Assembly (NCBI GenBank): GCA_903900025.1 | Contig: CAIULN010000093.1 | Location: 1 to 64,000, forward strand | From: an uncultured Methanomicrobiales archaeon | GTDB taxonomy: Archaea; Halobacteriota; Methanomicrobia; Methanomicrobiales; Methanospirillaceae | DNA: 64,000 nucleotides | Direction of reading: 5' to 3' | Shown: positions 1,753 to 21,058 of the stretch, piece after piece | How the letters are laid out: every line of letters starts with the position of its first letter | Numbering within the stretch: position 1 is the stretch's first letter | Notes under the pieces: generated by a model | Databases searched by the model: none | Told to the model about the DNA's origin: nothing | The model's input: the letters and a program-made list of their open reading frames with translations, nothing else | Program-made: the position numbers and the translations under genes

Positions 1753-2331
1753 TCAGAACGTTCCTTTCGTGCTCGGGATTCCTTTCTTTTTGTTGGCTGC
1801 AAGGGCTTTTGACAGCGCAATCCCGAACGCCTTGAAGACCGCCTCGCACTTGTGGTGGTCGTTCCGCCCGGTAAACGTGATGTGGGCGGTGATGCCGGCG
1901 CGTGTGCAGAGGGAGTGGAAGAAATGCTCGATGATCTCGGAATGGATCCCCCCCACCTTCGAGTCACCAAACGAACCGGAGAAGACAAGGTAGCCGCGCC
2001 CGCCGCAGTCAAGCGCCACGGTCGCCAGCGCCTCATCCATCGGGATGATCGCGTGGGCAAACCGCTCAATGCCCCTGCCGTCATCAATCGCCTGCCGGAT
2101 CGCGTCGCCGAGCACGATGCCGGTGTCCTCGACCGTGTGATGGCAGTCCACGTTAAGGTCGCCTTTCACCGTGCAGCCCAGGTCAAAGCCGCCGTGCTTT
2201 GCCATCGAATGGAGCATGTGGTCAAAGAAGGGGATGCCAGTCTTGACCGTTCCTTTCCCTGAACCATCAATATTCAATGCGAGCCTGATATCCGTCTCTT
2301 TTGTCGTACGTTCCAGCTGTACTTTCCTCAT
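1753..2331 (-). CDS. hisB: Imidazoleglycerol-phosphate dehydratase
   Basis: HisB catalyses the dehydration of imidazole glycerol phosphate in histidine biosynthesis. The protein is a monofunctional form of about 192 residues with both metal-binding repeats visible: the FFDHML and [10 protein letters not shown] motifs in the first half, and the [13 protein letters not shown] and [10 protein letters not shown] motifs in the second. I prefer the ATG at 2331, which overlaps the hisA stop (ATGA) and follows GGAGGTG at a good distance; a GTG six bases upstream is possible. It is the last gene of the mat-hisG-hisA-hisB run. Confidence 0.95.
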
Positions 2332-3038
2332 CTGCACACCTCCAGGGCCTCTGCAAGTGTTATCTTTCCGGAATAGAGCGCTGACCCGAGCACCGCCCCG
2401 CAGGCGCCCGTCTCCTTTAACCCGGATATGTCCTGCACACTGCTCACCCCGCCGGCCACAACGACCGGGCGTTGTGTGGCTTCAATAACCTTTCGCACCG
2501 GTTCGAACCGGACACCCTGCTGCAGCCCCTCCACGTCCACGTTGGTATAGAGGAACGAGCCTGCGCCGAGCGATTCGAACCTTTCCACCCATGCAATGAC
2601 ATCGCCGGCGGTCTTCTGCCAGCCTTCGACGGCGATCTGCCCGCCCTTTGCATCAACCCCCGCCATCACCCGTTTGCTCCCGAACTCGTCGGCGAGGGTC
2701 TGGATGATGTGGGGCTTTTGCGTCGCGACCGTCCCGAGAATAACGCGGGAGACGCCGGTCTCGAGCCAGCGGGCCGCGTCCTCCGTTGACCGGATACCTC
2801 CGCCCAGCTGGATCTCGATGCCGGTCATATGGATGAGATCTCGGATCAGGTCGGAGTTCTTCTTTGAGCTCCCGAACGCACCGTCGAGGTTAATGAGATG
2901 GAGGGCGTCTGCCCCCCCGGAGATCCAGTGCTCCGCCCATGAGAGCGGGTCGCCATAGACGGTCGCACTTTCACGCCTGCCCTGCACCAGCTGGACGCAT
3001 CGCCCGTCAAGGATATCCACCGCAGGGAAGATTCTCAT
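2328..3038 (-). CDS. hisA: ProFAR isomerase
   Basis: Phosphoribosylformimino-5-aminoimidazole carboxamide ribotide isomerase, a TIM barrel of 236 residues. The N-terminus carries the catalytic Asp in [17 protein letters not shown]; the phosphate loop [10 protein letters not shown], the second catalytic-Asp region MAGVDAKGG and the C-terminal phosphate site VVAGGVSS are all present. It overlaps hisB by four bases and follows hisG after five bases, so the three are one histidine operon transcribed leftward. Confidence 0.95.
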
Positions 3039-3043
3039 AATGT

Positions 3044-3946
3044 TCAGCGGATCATCCGCTGGATCGACATGACAAGGATGTCTTTTGCACCGGCACGCCG
3101 CAGAGCGTTGATCAGCGTATAGACCCGCTCCTCATTGACCACCGCATGCACCGCGACAAGGTCCTCTTTTGAGGCGACATCCATGACCGTTGGCCCTGAG
3201 AGGCCGGGCAGCACTTTTGTTACCGCCTCAAGAGCCGTGCGCTTCACGTTCATCATCAGGTAGCACTGGCCGCGGGCCCGCACGACACTCTCGAGGGCAA
3301 GCAGGATCTCATCGATCTTCTCCTTCTTTGTCCGCAGCGATTCTCTGTTGGCAATCAGGTGCGTGCTGGTCTCGAGCACGTCAGCAAGGACCCGGAGCCG
3401 GTTGGTCTTTAACGTGGTCCCGGAACTGGAGAGATCGACGATAGCATCAGCAATGCCAAGGTATGGTGTTGCCTCGCAGGCCCCGCCGACAAGGACAACA
3501 TTGACAGAAACACCCTGCTTTTTAAAAAAATTCTGTGTTATGGCAGGGAACTCTGTGGCAACCTTTGCACCCGCAAGGTCGCGTACGGAATGAATTTCTG
3601 AATCCTCCCGCACAGCAAGGACAATCTTTGCCCTGCCGGACTGCAGGTCAAGGAGGTCTTTTACATCGGAACCCCGTTCGATGACCATGTCGCGACCGGT
3701 GATCCCGAGATCAGCCGCACCGGTTGCAACGTACTCCGGGATATCGGCCGGGCGTGCGAACAGGATCTCAACGTGGGGGTCGAGGGTTCTGGTGATGAGC
3801 CGCCGCTCGCCTCCTGTCTCGGGGAGGTGGAGCCCGCTCTTTTCCACAAGCTCCATGATCGGTGCGGCAATCCTCCCCTTATTGGGTATCGCGAGGCGGA
3901 CCACCGGGGAAGACGGTGGCGGACCCCCAGGGAGGGGTTTTTTCAC
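3044..3946 (-). CDS. hisG: ATP phosphoribosyltransferase, long form
   Basis: HisG joins ATP and PRPP in the first step of histidine synthesis. The core starts at [12 protein letters not shown], followed by the phosphate-binding and PRPP regions ([12 protein letters not shown]). The C-terminal ACT-like regulatory domain, ending in [20 protein letters not shown], marks the long form, which is feedback-controlled by histidine and needs no HisZ. The start is uncertain. The frame extends to 3991, inside mat. GTG at 3946 lies just after the mat stop, and GTG at 3904 would give the shortest product. The 15-25 residues before the core are Lys/Pro/Gly-rich and not conserved. Confidence 0.9.
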
Positions 3947-3968
3947 GCCGCCTTTTTTTATTTTTGTA

Positions 3969-5171
3969 TCAGAAGGTCTTGAGCTCACCACAGATTACCT
4001 TCTCTGTAATATCGGTCACGTTCTCGAGCCAGGTATCGACAATCCCCTCGATCTCCCCCTTGATCTTCTGCATTTTGACCCCGGGTTGCGGCAGGACCTG
4101 GACGCTTGCGACAAGCGGGCGGTCTATGGGCTGGCCGATCTGGGAGAGGAGGCGGACATACATCTCGTCAATACCCTCGACCTGTGCGATGCAGTCATTT
4201 GCGATCTGGGTGGAGAGCAGGTTGTAGATCTTGCCGATATGGTTGATCGGGTTTTTCCCGCTCGTTGCCTCCATGCTCATGGGGCGGTTGGGGGTGATCA
4301 AGCCGTTACAGCGGTTGCCGCGCCCCACGGACCCGTCATCGCCCATCTCGGCAGAGGTCCCGGTCACGGTCAGGTAGACACTATTATTCTTGATATCATC
4401 CGCTGTATTGACGTGGACGACGACGTTGCGTTTTGTCTGTTTCTGTGCGACCTTCCCGATCTCCTTTGATAAGAGAGCCATATATTCTTTGTATTCGGAA
4501 ATATCAGCACAGTATTTGTCAACGATCGCGCAGGCAACGGTGAGGATGATGGTATTGCGGTCCCGCACCCCCATGATCTTGATGTCCTGCCCGATTGCGG
4601 GGTACTTGGGCCGCAGCTTGTCATCGATATAGTCACTGACATTTATTACGATATTTTCAACATCAGAGAAAGGTGCATGCCCGACTCCAAAGGACGTATC
4701 ATTTGCGCGGGGCACTCTTCCATCACAGGGTTTGAACACATCCTGGAGATCGGTTGAACCTGTGCCGAGCCGGCAGTCCATGATGACATCCCGTTCAAGG
4801 TTCAGGGTTGTAAAATGCGTGCGGAGGTAATCCCGTGTCGCTTCCACCGCAATGGCGTCGGCAGCGATCGCAACATTGTTGAATTTCTTTGTTGCACGGC
4901 CATCGATAAGGATGAAGATGGGGCGTATCACCTTGCCTCCCCCGAACTTTGGCACGGATTCACCGGCTACCACTTCGCCCTGGTCGGTATTGTGGTGCAG
5001 GACAGCCCCGAACTCTTGTAAGTATTCCCTGCACAGGGCCCTGCTGATCGATTCGGCGATACCATCAGCGATGCTGTCGGGATGACCGAGACATTTGCGT
5101 TCAACGAGTTCTATCTGCTGTTTTTCCAGTGGGATCTGGTCCAGTGCTTCGACTTTGATATTTCTCTTCAT
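3969..5171 (-). CDS. mat: Archaeal S-adenosylmethionine synthetase
   Basis: Methionine adenosyltransferase of the archaeal type, which is very distant from bacterial MetK. It makes S-adenosylmethionine from methionine and ATP. Characteristic blocks are [17 protein letters not shown] near the N-terminus, HHNTDQGEV, the [10 protein letters not shown] block and [11 protein letters not shown] followed by [14 protein letters not shown] start at ATG 5171 ([12 protein letters not shown]), preceded by GAGGAACGG. The frame reaches 5282, but those 37 residues are AT-rich and untypical. About 400 residues is the family norm. It is the first gene of the run leading into hisGAB, which may reflect shared nucleotide metabolism or simple linkage. 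Confidence 0.95.
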
Positions 5172-15047: not shown

Positions 15048-15809
15048 TTATTTCTTTTCTTTCCCGCCTTTTGCCGGCTTGCCGCCCTTTGCCGGCTCTT
15101 CGGCAGCCTTTGCCGCGGGAACTGCTGCTGCCTTCTTTTCCTCAGCACCCTTTGCAGGCTCCCTGCCCTTCGCGGGTTTGCCGCCCCTGTGCTCTTCAGC
15201 ACCCTTCGCCGCTTCCTTCTCCTTGGGTTCCTCAACGGCTGCTGTTACCGGTGCAGCAACAACCTTCTCCTCAGAGAATTTGGCCGCCACAATTCTGCCG
15301 CTCACCTTGATCGTACTGATCTTGAGGTGTGAAGGAGAGGGGAGCTTGTGCCCGCCATGGCGGAGTGCATCCTTCACCTTTTCGAGATACTGGGGGGTTG
15401 AAAAGACGGTAAGGATGCGCTGGTTTGACGCGACCCGTGCGGCAGTCCCGACCGCCTTTCCGAACGCGAGGCGCATCCCTTCGGATACACGGTCCGCACC
15501 TGCACCGGTCGCCTGCTTGTTCTCACGGAGGACATGGTGGGGATAGACACGGACCTTGAAGTGGAAATTCGCCCTACCGACCTCCTTCATCAGCCTGCGG
15601 TTGACGCTGATGCGTGCTGATTCGAGCGCAGAGTGACGGACCTGACACGCCTCTTCGATGACCAGATCAACCTGTGTCGGAAACTCCTGTGTGAGGTTTC
15701 CCATCTCAAACTGCACGATCTTGCTTCCCGGAACCCCGCCCATGTACTCACGGCGCGTGTAGGCTTTCTTTGAAATGTTCCTGTACATCTTTCCTGGTTT
15801 TCTTACCAT
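15048..15809 (-). CDS. rpl10e: Ribosomal protein L10e (uL16) with C-terminal Lys/Ala/Gly tail
   Basis: Residues 1 to about 175 are a complete archaeal L10e/uL16: [11 protein letters not shown] at the start, [39 protein letters not shown] and the [10 protein letters not shown] region. Normal family members stop there. This one continues for about 78 residues of low complexity built from AKG, GGKPAKG and EEPAKG-like units, rich in Lys, Ala, Gly and Glu. The start is supported by AAGGAGTG 10 bases upstream and a TATA-like GATTTTTATGCC near 15850. It is a single-gene unit. The core assignment is secure; the tail has no known role. Confidence 0.93.
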
Positions 15810-15928: not shown

Positions 15929-16690
15929 TTACGAGAGAGAACATTTCGGCTGGTTGATCATGTCGAGGACATACCTGCGGACTTTTGCGAATTCCACGCT
16001 GGTGCGGTCACGGGGGTGGGGGTGATCGACCGGTATTACATCGCAGATCCGGCCGGGGCGCGGGGTGAGCACCAGGATCCGGTCAGCAAGGAAGACCGCT
16101 TCGTCCACACTATGGGTGACAAACAGGATCGTCTTTTTTGTCTTGCCCCAGATGTCGAGAAGGTCATACTGGAGCTTGTTTCTGGTCTGTGCATCGAGGG
16201 CCCCGAACGGCTCGTCCATCAGGAGGACTTTCGGATCAACGGCGAGCGCCCGCACCACGGCGATACGCTGCCGCATGCCTCCCGAGAGCTCGTACGGGTA
16301 GCTGGTCCCGAATTCAGAGAGCCCGGTCAGGGCAAGGTATTTTTGGACGATTCCCGCCCGCTCTTCTTCCACGACTCCCTGGATCTCAAGACCAAAAGCG
16401 ATATTCTCGTTGACCGTGCGCCAGGGGTAGAGAGAATAGTCCTGGAAGATCATCCCGAGCTTTCTGTTGGGGCGGTCAATTACGGTCCCGTCGATCCGCA
16501 CAGTGCCGGATGTCGGGTGGTCGAGCCCGGCGATGATGCGCAGGAGCGTTGTCTTCCCGCACCCGCTGGGCCCGAGAATGCAGATGAACTCCCCGTCCCT
16601 GACGTCAACACTGATATCAACAAGTGCCTCCACCAGCTCCTCACCGTTCTTGACAAACTGCTTCGAGAGGTTTTCGATGGTCAGTGTCAT
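15929..16690 (-). CDS. ABC transporter ATP-binding protein (nitrate/sulfonate/taurine type)
   Basis: A 253-residue ATPase with Walker A (GPSGCGKTT, from residue 40), Q-loop FQDYSLYPW, signature LSGGMRQR and Walker B LLMDEPFGALD. The LYPWRTV sequence after the Q-loop is typical of the SsuB/TauB/NrtD group. It energises import through the permease encoded just upstream and overlaps that gene by four bases. The substrate cannot be read from this subunit; sulfonates, nitrate or related small anions are the usual range. Confidence 0.92.
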   Translation of the reverse strand: MTLTIENLSKQFVKNGEELVEALVDISVDVRDGEFICILGPSGCGKTTLLRIIAGLDHPTSGTVRIDGTVIDRPNRKLGMIFQDYSLYPWRTVNENIAFGLEIQGVVEEERAGIVQKYLALTGLSEFGTSYPYELSGGMRQRIAVVRALAVDPKVLLMDEPFGALDAQTRNKLQYDLLDIWGKTKKTILFVTHSVDEAVFLADRILVLTPRPGRICDVIPVDHPHPRDRTSVEFAKVRRYVLDMINQPKCSLS

Positions 16691-17493
16691 CTCTCAAGCA
16701 CCCTCCACGAAAACGAGCGCCGGTCGATCACTTTGAACAGGTAGTCAAACCCGATCCCAATCAGCCCGATCACGATCATTCCTGCAATGATCACCTGCAC
16801 CTGCCCCCAGTTGTAGGAGGACATGATCAGGTACCCGAGCCCCGAGTTGGTGCCCGGCATCATCTCGGCAGCGACCACGCACATCCATGCGATACCGAAC
16901 CCGACACGGAGCCCGGTCCAGATCGTGGGTGCCGCCCCGGGAAGGACCACCTTGAGCAGCACCTGGCGGTGGGTTGCGCCAAGGATCTCCGCGGACTCGA
17001 TCCAGTTTCGCTTTACGCTTTTCACCCCGTCAAGGGTATTGAGGAGGATGGGGAAGAACGCACCGAGTGCGATGATGAAGACCATCGATGCGAGCCCGAT
17101 CTTGAACCATGCGAGGGCAAGCGGCACCCAGGCAAGAGGCGGAATAGGGCGGAGGAGCTGCAGGGTGGAATCGAAAAAATCATGTGTAGAATCTGACCGT
17201 GCCATGCTGATCCCCAACGGTATCGCGAGGCCTGCAGCGATCAGGAACCCGAGGATGACCCTTTCAAGGCTGGTAAAAGCATTGGTGATCAGGTTGCCAT
17301 ACCCGAGGATGTCAGCAGTCGGTGAGAACAGGACCGCAAAAACCGATTCAAGCCGCGGGAGTATGAACTCGTTGTTGAGAAGGATCGCAATGATCTCCCA
17401 CCCGATAATTATTCCCAACGGCAGGATCACTTTCAGGAACGTATGGGGGTGCAGGAGCCCCTCATGCCCACCGCCACGCTTCATAAAACCCAT
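16687..17493 (-). CDS. ABC transporter permease (SsuC/TauC type)
   Basis: A 268-residue membrane protein with about six hydrophobic helices. It has the cytoplasmic EAA loop, here ESAEILGATHRQVLLKVVLPGAAP, that docks on the ATPase. The first helix follows a short basic N-terminus with HPHTFLKVILPLGIII. It sits between the binding-protein gene (82 bases upstream) and the ATPase gene (four-base overlap), giving a complete importer. Confidence 0.92.
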   Translation of the reverse strand: MGFMKRGGGHEGLLHPHTFLKVILPLGIIIGWEIIAILLNNEFILPRLESVFAVLFSPTADILGYGNLITNAFTSLERVILGFLIAAGLAIPLGISMARSDSTHDFFDSTLQLLRPIPPLAWVPLALAWFKIGLASMVFIIALGAFFPILLNTLDGVKSVKRNWIESAEILGATHRQVLLKVVLPGAAPTIWTGLRVGFGIAWMCVVAAEMMPGTNSGLGYLIMSSYNWGQVQVIIAGMIVIGLIGIGFDYLFKVIDRRSFSWRVLER

Positions 17494-17575: not shown

Positions 17576-18793
17576 TTATGAGGACTCTTTGATCGCAATA
17601 CCGCTGTCCCTGATTGCAAACTTGAGCATGACATCCTGGATGGATCCTTTGCCCGGGTTTGCCATGACGAGGGGTTTGCCTTCGGCAGATCTCTGTTGCG
17701 CCCACGCGATAAAGGATTTCCAGTCGGTGACCGGTGCGCCGGCAGCAACAACAACCCCGGAACCCTCCGTGTTAAGCGGGTGAAGGATCCTGATAGGTAT
17801 GCCCTTGTCAATGGCAGCGAGTTCCGGTGGTGTCCCGATATATCCCATCTGGACGGTATCGGTTGCCGCCAGCTGGGTGACCTGCGGCCCGGCGTCACCT
17901 CCGATCAGCTTGACCTCAGCAACCTTCTGCCCGTTGACCATAAGGTCGCAGAGCTCGGGTTTGGACTGGGACGGGTCTCTGGGTACAAGCGCCACGCCAT
18001 AGGTATCATTGAAGTACTGGTACTTTTTGACGGCGACGATAAGGGAAGCCGAATGCATATCCCCGTTGAGGTACCCGATCGCAAACGGTTTGTCCAGCCT
18101 GGCAGGTGTTACGACCTTTTTGTCGTCAACCATCTTCCGTGCTGTATGGTACGGTCCGAAGTTGAAGATCATCGCTGCCCGTTGTTCGGGCGTAGCATTC
18201 CTGATGTTGGCGGTGATATACCCGAGATCGATCTGAGCGCTCACGAATTTGGTGGTACCGTTGATCCATGAGGGCGAGGGGTCGGTGGTGTACTTCACGG
18301 TGGGCAACGCGGAGTGGACGACAGCGATTGAAGATACCGTGACGTTTCCATAGGTCAGGTTCCCTTTGCCCGCGATCCAGTCAGCAACAAGCTCGCCGGA
18401 TTCTTCCTTGTGGGTATTGATGTAATCGGTCGACGCGATGGTCAGGGCACTGATCGCGTTGACAATGTCGGGATTTTTCGCGATAAAGTCGTCCCGCACG
18501 AACAGGGCACAACAGGGGTGGTCCTTCCACATCCCCATTGGGGGGAGGTCGCCTGAATACACAAGGACCTTTCCAATCCTGCTTTCTGCAGCCACAGCAA
18601 CGAACGGCTGCCATGCGATGTACCCGTCGATCTGGTTTGTTGCCAGAAGCATCGGAAGGGGCCCGACCCCTTTGCTGTACAGGATAGTGACACTTGCATT
18701 GCCGGACGTGCCCGCCGGCTGCGTGCAGCCGGCAGTGAGGAGAACGAGTGCAATCGTGATGAGCACGATTGTGGTTACCTTTAACATTTTCAT
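17576..18793 (-). CDS. ABC transporter substrate-binding lipoprotein with apparently permuted lobes
   Basis: A 405-residue secreted binding protein with a lipoprotein-type signal (LLTAGC, Cys23). The family is the NMT1/SsuA-like periplasmic binding fold, but the order of the halves is unusual. Residues 34-190 match the part that normally comes second (ASVTILYSKGVG, GYIAWQPF, the DHPCC segment, ATDYIN-like STDYIN, and VKYTTDPSPSW at the usual C-terminus). Residues about 237-405 match the part that normally comes first (FAIGYLNGDMHSA, VQMGYIGTPPELAAIDKG, NTEGSGVVV, ANPGKGSIQDVMLK). The break falls between the equivalents of IKESS and ASVTILYS. It is the first gene of the transporter operon. Confidence 0.85.
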   Translation of the reverse strand: MKMLKVTTIVLITIALVLLTAGCTQPAGTSGNASVTILYSKGVGPLPMLLATNQIDGYIAWQPFVAVAAESRIGKVLVYSGDLPPMGMWKDHPCCALFVRDDFIAKNPDIVNAISALTIASTDYINTHKEESGELVADWIAGKGNLTYGNVTVSSIAVVHSALPTVKYTTDPSPSWINGTTKFVSAQIDLGYITANIRNATPEQRAAMIFNFGPYHTARKMVDDKKVVTPARLDKPFAIGYLNGDMHSASLIVAVKKYQYFNDTYGVALVPRDPSQSKPELCDLMVNGQKVAEVKLIGGDAGPQVTQLAATDTVQMGYIGTPPELAAIDKGIPIRILHPLNTEGSGVVVAAGAPVTDWKSFIAWAQQRSAEGKPLVMANPGKGSIQDVMLKFAIRDSGIAIKESS

Positions 18794-18854: not shown

Positions 18855-18980
18855 TTGTGATAAATTATATATAAAAAATGCGAAAATGGACACTGGTAAT
18901 CTGATAAATGTCCACGAACGGGAAATTTTTCCTGCCTTGGGTTAGCACAATAATAAAAAAATTTTTCAGGAATTATCACA
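18855..18980. promoter_or_regulatory. Divergent control region with repeated TTGTGATAA half-sites
   Basis: The gap between the transporter operon and the divergent HTH gene contains TTGTGATAA on the plus strand (from 18855, running into TTATATATAA) and its inverse TTATCACAA at 18973-18981, just before the regulator start. Both copies are AT-flanked and sit near likely promoters. They are plausible operator half-sites for the neighbouring regulator. This is inference from symmetry and position only. Confidence 0.35.
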
Positions 18981-18994
18981 ATTGTATCTATGAT

Positions 18995-19528
18995 ATGGCA
19001 CAATCAGACCCGATCGACCGGCTCATGCGCGCGGCACTGAGCTCAGATGAGGAGTTTGTTCTGACGCTCAACAATCTCCTGAAGCACGACCTCCGGATCA
19101 GCGTGCGGGAGCTCTCGGAAAAGAGCGGGATCTCCCCGAGCTCGCTGTACAAACTCCTGCATGGGAAACGTTCCCCGAACCTGAGTACGCTTCGTGCCAT
19201 CATCCGCGCCCTGCGCCACCTCTACCATGTCGGGGACGAGACATTCATCGGGCTGATCGCTGCCCGCCCGGTGCTCGAGAACGTCGAGGAGCGGGTCGCC
19301 GAGATTGACGGGCACCGCATGCGGGTCCGCGAATACCCTGTCCACACCATGGAGGATGCAATTGTCGCTGCTGTGCGGGCAGAACGCGAAGGAGCGATTG
19401 CGATCGTATGCGCCCCGATTGTGTCAAGTATTATCGAGCAGCTCGTCCATGTGCCGGTCGCGACCATCATACCCCGTGAATCGGTCCAGCGGGCAATCGA
19501 GCTGGCAGCACGGAAGGCGTGGATTTAA
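18995..19528 (+). CDS. HTH transcriptional regulator (COG1709-like)
   Basis: A regulator of about 177 residues starting at MAQSDPIDRLMRAA (ATG 18995). Residues about 20-75 form an XRE-type helix-turn-helix (ISVRELSEKSGISPSSLYKLLHGKRSPNLSTLRAI). The C-terminal part (VAEIDGHRMRVREYPV to the end) resembles the small domain found in archaeal COG1709-type regulators. The frame is open from 18908, but the first 29 residues are AT-rich and not part of the domain. It is divergent from the ABC transporter and probably controls it; no inducer can be inferred. Confidence 0.8.
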   Translation: MAQSDPIDRLMRAALSSDEEFVLTLNNLLKHDLRISVRELSEKSGISPSSLYKLLHGKRSPNLSTLRAIIRALRHLYHVGDETFIGLIAARPVLENVEERVAEIDGHRMRVREYPVHTMEDAIVAAVRAEREGAIAIVCAPIVSSIIEQLVHVPVATIIPRESVQRAIELAARKAWI

Positions 19529-19576: not shown

Positions 19577-21058
19577 ATGCGAACCGACGTTGTAAGGCTG
19601 GGACGCCTTTCCGGCGAGAGAACCGGGGAGATGATGCGGTTCCTCTCATCGATGCGTGCCGACCGCTGTATTGCTGACGCAGATGTGCTTGTGGACATCG
19701 CCCACGTGCTGATGCTTGACAAGCAGAAGATCATCGACCGCGATATCACAAAGCAGCTCCTCCAGGCACTCCTGGAACTCCATGACGAGGGGGTTCCTGA
19801 CGAGGCGTTCGATGACCGGTTTGAGGACGTCCACGCGGGCATCGAGTCCATCCTCACCGAGGCGGTCGGTGCTGACGTCGGCGGGCGCATGCACATGGGG
19901 CGGTCGCGAAACGACGAGGTAGCCACCTGCATCCGGATGAAGCTGCGTGACGATATCCTCAAGCAGATGGCAGCACTCCTCAAAGTGCGCGAGGTACTGG
20001 TCGCCCTTGCCGGGCAGCATATCGACAGCGTCATGCCCGGTTTCACCCACCTGCAGCACGCCCAGCCGACGACCCTTGCCCACCACCTCCTGTCCTATGA
20101 ACAGGCATTCTCCCGGGACTTCGACCGGCTGAGGGACGCGTATATCAGGATAAACCAGTCCCCGCTTGGCGCAGCAGCGTTTGCCTCCACGGGCTACCCC
20201 ATCAACCGGGAACTCACCGCACGCTTCCTCGGGTTCGAGGGGCTGGTGAACAATACCATGGATGCCGTGGCGAGCCGTGACTTTGCGCTGGAGGCGCTTG
20301 CCGACCTCTCCATCCTGATGGCGAACGTGAGCCGGCTCTGCGAGGATCTCATCCTCTGGAGCACCACGTTTGTCGCGTTTGTCACCCTTGATGACGCATT
20401 CTGTTCCACCTCGTCCATCATGCCCCAGAAGAAGAACCCGGACATTGCCGAGATCATGCGTGCAAAAACCGGGTCGGTGTTCGGCGCGTATACCGGCGCA
20501 CTTATCACGGTCAAAGGGCTCCCGATGAGCTACAACCGGGACCTGCAGGAGCTCACCCCCAACATCTGGCGCGGGATGCGCGATGCAAAGGAAAGCCTGC
20601 GCCTGCTGATTGACATGCTCTCCAGTGCGACGTTCGATGCCGTGCGGATGAGGGAGGAGGCCGGCAAGGGGTTCTCCACGGCGACCGAACTTGCCGATAC
20701 GCTCGTGCGCAGCTACGGGCTCCCGTTCCGCACTGCCCACAATATTGTCGGGAGGGCGGTGCAGAAAGGATACCTCAACCTTGAAACTCTGGATACGGCG
20801 GCGCGTGAACTCGAGGTTGATATCTCCTTTGCAGACAAGGGGCTGACACAGGAGAAAATCAATGAGGTGCTGGATGTCAGTTATTGCGTCGCGCTCCGAA
20901 AAGCTCCCGGGGGGCCGGCCCCGTTCGCAACCAAGATCGCAATAGAAGAATGCAGGAAGCAGCTTGACACAGATTCTGCGCTCATCGATGAGCGGCTCGC
21001 AAAACTCGCACGGGCAAAGGATGAGCTGATTGCCGAAGCCCGGAGGCTGGTAGCATAA
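19577..21058 (+). CDS. argH: Argininosuccinate lyase
   Basis: A 493-residue enzyme of the fumarase/aspartase superfamily. It splits argininosuccinate into arginine and fumarate, the last step of arginine synthesis. Conserved blocks are VGGRMHMGRSRNDEVAT near residue 100, the PGFTHLQHAQPTTLAHH block with the catalytic His near residue 155, and the signature STSSIMPQKKNPD near residue 275. Length and motifs are normal. The gatD gene follows without a gap. Confidence 0.96.
   Translation: MRTDVVRLGRLSGERTGEMMRFLSSMRADRCIADADVLVDIAHVLMLDKQKIIDRDITKQLLQALLELHDEGVPDEAFDDRFEDVHAGIESILTEAVGADVGGRMHMGRSRNDEVATCIRMKLRDDILKQMAALLKVREVLVALAGQHIDSVMPGFTHLQHAQPTTLAHHLLSYEQAFSRDFDRLRDAYIRINQSPLGAAAFASTGYPINRELTARFLGFEGLVNNTMDAVASRDFALEALADLSILMANVSRLCEDLILWSTTFVAFVTLDDAFCSTSSIMPQKKNPDIAEIMRAKTGSVFGAYTGALITVKGLPMSYNRDLQELTPNIWRGMRDAKESLRLLIDMLSSATFDAVRMREEAGKGFSTATELADTLVRSYGLPFRTAHNIVGRAVQKGYLNLETLDTAARELEVDISFADKGLTQEKINEVLDVSYCVALRKAPGGPAPFATKIAIEECRKQLDTDSALIDERLAKLARAKDELIAEARRLVA

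Follow-up and report, generated by a model that had tools for sequence, protein, structure and literature searches.

Among the substrate-binding proteins (SBPs) of ABC transporters, a natural circular permutation has been described in Tp0684 (MglB-2) of T. pallidum, which was classified as 'Type Ic / Cluster Bc', binds glucose, and changes conformation (PMC4990184). Tp0684 is a membrane-tethered substrate-binding lipoprotein whose homologues share its permuted order; it is bacterial, has the type I/cluster B sugar-binding fold, and is cut in the N lobe, and its permuted part is 13% identical to the canonical one (PMC4990184). Circular permutation is also known from enzymes, in the motif-order classes of the DNA methyltransferases, and from small helical domains, in saposin/swaposin; duplicated intermediates have been described for the methyltransferases (PMC3320104). 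Such intermediates, in the form of fused tandem copies, belong to the duplication model for the origin of permutations (PMC3320104).

Substrate-binding proteins of the SsuA, TauA, and NrtA kind (PDB 6ssy, 2x26, 3ksx, and 2g29) have the canonical order. Methanogens possess a sulfonate-type importer of this kind: the ssuA and ssuC genes of Methanosarcina acetivorans have been described as encoding a transporter specific for coenzyme M (CoM) that is induced by CoM starvation (PMC12068725), and according to a review nearly all methanogens have ssuABC genes for CoM (PMC10658910). The SBP of the M. acetivorans importer is canonical.

Here we describe P0001, a circularly permuted SsuA/NMT1-like substrate-binding lipoprotein of an uncultured Methanomicrobiales archaeon, which is encoded in a 64,000-nucleotide stretch of contig CAIULN010000093.1 that we refer to as the window. 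Unlike Tp0684, P0001 is archaeal, has a predicted type II SsuA-like fold, is cut in lobe II, and belongs to a family with several breakpoints and tandem intermediates. Its relatives are NMT1/SsuA proteins of type II, and Tp0684 was not among its sequence matches, which places it outside Type Ic / Cluster Bc. We found no type II or archaeal permuted SBP, and no SBP family with multiple breakpoints, in the open-licence literature. A permuted, tethered SBP of the type I fold was known already; what is surprising is a series of permutations with living intermediates.

Results

Two exchanged parts behind a lipoprotein signal

The gene for P0001 (405 amino acids) occupies positions 17576–18793, the span given in the original prediction, but it lies on the minus strand, with an ATG at 18793 and a stop codon at 17576–17578. 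The protein begins with a signal peptide (residues 1–23, 18725–18793), modeled as a helix at residues 2–21 and ending in the lipobox LLTAGC with Cys23; the pattern 'l..agc' is kept in the family, in agreement with the proposal that a signal had been placed before the new N-terminus. Then comes what in canonical proteins is the C-terminal part (residues 34–224, 18122–18694), which corresponds to the rest of lobe II and the C-terminal part of lobe I, contains the motifs QIDGYIAWQPF and DHPCC, and was delimited with a lobe B model and by its alignment to positions 147–296 of a canonical profile. The canonical N-terminal part comes last (residues 237–405, 17579–18085, delimited with a lobe A model and DSSP) and contains IGYLNGDMH, GTPPEL, NTEGSG, and the GSIQD helix. 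It stops in the loop that precedes the first strand of the mature protein, with an extra short strand at residues 400–404; lying beside the break, this strand could be a leftover of duplicated sequence.

Profile searches revealed the exchange of the two parts. The NMT1_2 model (PF13379) matched P0001 in two stretches with 85.8 bits, above its gathering score of 24.7. The better stretch placed residues 49–140 on positions 167–251 of 252, the last third of the profile, and a weak match to PF09084 placed residues 293–361 near the start of that profile, at positions 22–91 of 216. Thus, the C-terminal part of the profile comes first in P0001. With half-models built from the family (B from residues 33–232 and A from residues 233–405 of P0001), the order was B followed by A in 61 of 61 full-length homologous open reading frames, which supplied the homologues of like order that the original prediction had proposed to look for. 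The order was A followed by B in six ordinary SBPs from sister genomes, the B match starting within about 3–20 residues of model A position ~167.

We also rotated mature P0001 in steps of ten residues against a profile made only from canonical proteins. In its native order the protein scored 93 bits and covered half of the profile; rotated, it reached a peak of 142–143 bits, spanning profile positions 13–296, with the cut at residues 203–233. The highest score among 300 shuffled copies was 3.2 bits, and doubling the sequence produced no gain in score for canonical or plasmid-borne bacterial SBPs. As judged by these alignments, both segments of P0001 are homologous to one canonical protein, with their order swapped. 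After rotation, its segments, motifs, and predicted secondary structure elements match those of the SsuA, TauA, and NrtA proteins one to one, with the exception of a family-specific hairpin. P0001 remained under the SsuA_fam (TIGR01728) cut-off of 163.5 in either order (57.9 bits native, 62.3 rotated); given that rotation gains only 4 bits, we reject permutation as the sole cause of the low score. The SaoX model (NF040735) gave 39.5 bits, below its curated cut-off of 300.

Position of the cut in the predicted fold

An AlphaFold model of P0001, obtained with 55 aligned relatives, showed two lobes with high confidence (pLDDT 94.1, pTM 0.88), and a model of a canonical sister protein (L064) had a pLDDT of 87.9. 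The order of the DSSP elements of P0001 mapped onto that of L064 after rotation, and the ordinary lobe order, for which a structural check had been proposed, was absent from the predicted fold. The cut falls between helix 385–396 (canonical 146–157), which is GSIQDVMLKFAIRDSGI, the first helix of lobe II, and strand 34–39 (canonical 166–169), which is VTILYS, the next strand. In the models, then, the break lies inside lobe II and not between the lobes, where the new ends had originally been placed. Also revised is the length of the sequence joining the former termini, put at about 45 residues in the original prediction: because helix 213–224 is the counterpart of the canonical C-terminal helix 319–325, the former C-terminus is connected to the former N-terminus by only about 12 residues (225–236, 18086–18121), which are bounded by helix 213–224 and strand 237–242 in P0001, as compared with helix 319–325 and strand 31–36 in the canonical model.

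In a search of the PDB with Foldseek, which respects chain order, the permuted model had 2 matches at E≤0.001, with TM up to about 0.3, whereas L064 had 1,101, with TauA and SsuA leading (TM 0.74–0.86); no solved protein with the chain order of P0001 was found in this search.

In sum, P0001 is an SsuA/TauA-like type II SBP that has undergone a true circular permutation. The central proposal of the original prediction, a permutation with swapped halves, was borne out by the sequence, the homologues, the predicted fold, and the synteny described below.

The importer operon and its possible substrate

Two genes follow on the minus strand: an ABC permease (16687–17493; BPD_transp_1, Pfam 98.6 bits), which adjoins the SBP gene in most homologous loci, and an ABC ATPase (15929–16690), a conserved neighbor whose best NCBIfam models, those of the SaoA, NtrCD, and TauB families, all score under their cut-offs. 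As had been anticipated, this is an ordinary transporter operon (SBP–permease–ATPase), and it encodes an ABC importer, P0001 having both the lipoprotein signal and the adjoining permease and ATPase genes that mark an importer SBP. Conserved residues are spread over the whole sequence of the family. Transcribed divergently is a gene for a helix-turn-helix regulator with a weak PrpR_N-like domain (18908–19528, plus strand), which is conserved beside permuted and canonical versions alike; genomes that probably belong to the family of M. acetivorans have a canonical SBP in the same layout of permease, ATPase, and regulator. The operon is flanked by two syntenic anchors named from their sequences, a ribosomal L10e/L16-like protein downstream (15048–15809, minus strand) and an argininosuccinate lyase-like gene upstream (19577–21058, plus strand). 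The L10e/L16-like protein has a long low-complexity tail of Ala, Lys, Pro, and Glu.

As to the substrate, we lean somewhat toward CoM (2-mercaptoethanesulfonate) or a related sulfonate. The canonical sister L064 passes the SsuA_fam cut-off of 163.5 with 179.6 bits. At locus L121, comB–comDE lies directly upstream of the permuted SBP gene, and at L112 a comDE-like gene and then a leaderless SBP-like gene come just before it. Neighbors of the permuted SBP gene in the Methanomicrobiales were uninformative on the substrate. Neither comB (PF04029) nor comDE-beta (TIGR03846) had a match in the window's genome, which is 90% complete, and many relatives with a permuted or a canonical SBP likewise had no match to either; possibly, the organism is a CoM auxotroph or uses another pathway. 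At two loci (L114, 50–2796; L119, 4–1983), genes for a RACo-like corrinoid activase and an MtrH-like methyltransferase immediately precede the permuted SBP operon, which suggests other substrates in some lineages.

We note that SsuA-like proteins without a signal peptide, which are probably cytosolic, are encoded at L112 (1450–2325), L065 (2127–3068), and L071 (1987–2970), in the latter two beside a paralogue of the helix-turn-helix regulator. These proteins are possibly CoM-related.

Distribution of permuted and canonical proteins

We surveyed 61 related genomes from the genus, family, and order of the window's organism. The permuted SBP was present in 34, its close relatives being 42–89% identical and full length except where a contig end cuts them, and the canonical family (alignment A2) was present in 25; none of the 61 had both (Fisher p 4e-15). 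The two genomes with neither are 62–64% complete, and some genomes of either class also hold diverged permuted paralogues (about 30–35% identity). The mutual exclusion extends into a single genus (3 versus 5 genomes). A wider scan of a genome contig collection returned 35 loci, all archaeal, among them some in Methanosaeta at 29% identity and in Thermoplasmata at 25–28%.

The canonical SBP of a genome of the same genus (G003, locus L069) occupies the very locus of the window. Between the two loci the regulator is 88% identical, argH 84%, rpl10e 89%, the ATPase 64%, and the permease 37%; argH and rpl10e also flank the canonical SBP at L063 and L064, and rpl10e is present at L066. The conserved flanks together with the exclusive distribution indicate that the SBP cassette was swapped in place under a divergent regulator that was itself conserved, and this exchange of canonical and permuted forms is probably an isofunctional replacement.

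Two exceptional sequences turned up in the survey. Another genome of the genus contains an isolated A-half of the permuted SBP, leaderless and 183 amino acids long (L189, 2263–2811), and in genome G025 a canonical SBP match (contig C7, 250751–251770) is interrupted by one in-frame TGA.

Further breakpoints and fused tandem duplicates

The break of P0001, which we call type 1, recurs in more families of the phylum (L106–L115, L118, L119, L123, and L124) and in Thermoplasmatota. Three additional breaks were found. In type 2, read from one genome of 220 contigs (L116, 1865–2953), the order is signal–A2–B–A1. Compared with the canonical orthologue of the same genus (L157, 1045–2127), two adjacent blocks are exchanged, L116 positions 2036–2637 corresponding to L157 positions 1501–2105 (78% nucleotide identity) and 2669–2946 to 1222–1499 (83%), and the operon is otherwise collinear (1203–2004 with 403–1208 and 2952–4427 with 2126–3607). 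The type 2 permutation is a recent event within one genus. Type 3, in Thermoplasmatota, starts at the NxxGSG strand and ends at VGSPPVVxxxINA; its members have an N-terminal hydrophobic anchor, most of them apparently without a lipobox. Type 4 (L223–L227, Thermoplasmatota) has its break within the B part, with WEPQFQRVIQES on one side and YVSLGLTNNFFPDHTCC on the other.

A tandem paralogue had been suggested as a possible source of the permutation. A source within the window's own genome is rejected, the P0001 gene being the sole match there; fused tandem paralogues do, however, exist in Thermoplasmatota. Single open reading frames of 790 amino acids (L221, 1885–4254) and 793 amino acids (L222, 2169–4547) consist of two tandem type 3 copies that are 84% and 72% identical, respectively. 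Each has a complete canonical-order unit in its middle and is followed by permease and ATPase genes. Fused genes of this kind are what the duplication model predicts as an intermediate.

In a tree of 77 un-permuted sequences, some with long branches, the topology labels require 9 changes (no fewer than 5, given the number of states). Type 4 arises in two places, both on branches with good support, L116 and L157 are paired at 100/100, and the canonical Thermoplasmatota proteins L139 and L228 are placed among type 1 sequences. A single clade of types 1 and 3 that leaves out L139 is rejected (AU p 0.001), but one that includes it is not (p 0.32); type 1 may thus have arisen once or more often. 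Several of the loci compared come from draft genomes. Bacteria were covered by plasmid records and one pattern scan, and none of the eight loci read in detail among the plasmid matches encodes a permuted bacterial SBP. One of these matches, Haloarcula L170, is archaeal and was matched only in part.

Discussion

We are highly confident of the following picture as a whole. P0001 is a permuted type II SBP: its chain opens with the second strand of lobe II, passes through the old C-terminus and on, by way of the short linker, to the old N-terminus, and stops behind the first helix of lobe II. It would serve its own permease and ATPase as an ordinary Venus-flytrap binding protein, with the lipid anchor on lobe II rather than on lobe I. 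The permutation would have arisen when the gene was duplicated in tandem, the copies were fused, and the outer parts were lost. In other archaea the same family was permuted at three more points, and some fused tandem duplicates still exist.

Joining of two parts from separate genes, whether half-SBPs or different SBPs, can also yield any circular permutation and was considered for the permuted part of Tp0684. The isolated half gene at L189 might be seen as such a part; lacking a leader and its first strand, it is instead probably a decayed copy. Moreover, both parts of P0001 fit one canonical profile once rotated, the family contains fused tandem duplicates, and type 2 is an exact swap of adjacent blocks of one gene, so that we regard such a joining as very improbable. 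Scarcely less improbable is that the permuted order is ancestral in the archaeal family and that canonical members were permuted back: although L139 and L228 sit among type 1 sequences and a clade of types 1 and 3 including L139 survives the AU test, the bacterial relatives checked and the aligned solved structures are all canonical, and the canonical and permuted proteins of the Methanomicrobiales form separate clades.

We also think it unlikely, though less so, that the permuted protein binds a different ligand from the canonical one and that the exclusive distribution is due to lineage history alone. The low identity of the permeases would be in keeping with this, as would the RACo and MtrH neighbors for that lineage, whereas the exclusion holds within one genus, at the same locus, and beside a regulator that is nearly unchanged. 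Finally, the window's genome is an assembly of 103 contigs, and a sequencing rearrangement had been named as a possible refutation of the permutation. The same order, with intact frames, is nonetheless present in dozens of independently assembled genomes, some in one or two contigs (G010, G049, and G054), and is fixed across the Methanomicrobiales, which argues against an assembly artefact, as the conserved residues throughout the protein argue against a pseudogene; we give either almost no credence.

Returning to permutation by duplication, we consider it likely that one archaeal family of ABC SBPs has been permuted repeatedly and independently at no fewer than four points through genes that were duplicated, fused, and trimmed, with fused intermediates still living, one event recent, and operon and function kept, and that the position of the anchor may be a target of selection. 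Profile and fold searches that depend on chain order give permuted genes of this kind low scores, and such genes may pass for fragments. Natural circular permutations are usually viewed as isolated, old pairs; here related archaea hold one SBP in its canonical order, in four permuted orders, and as tandem fusions. In-place replacement and a recent event with a known sister gene make the duplication model directly testable, as are the tolerance of the SBP fold to cutting and the effect of relocating the membrane anchor. Evolution has seemingly rotated one transporter gene again and again while keeping its role.
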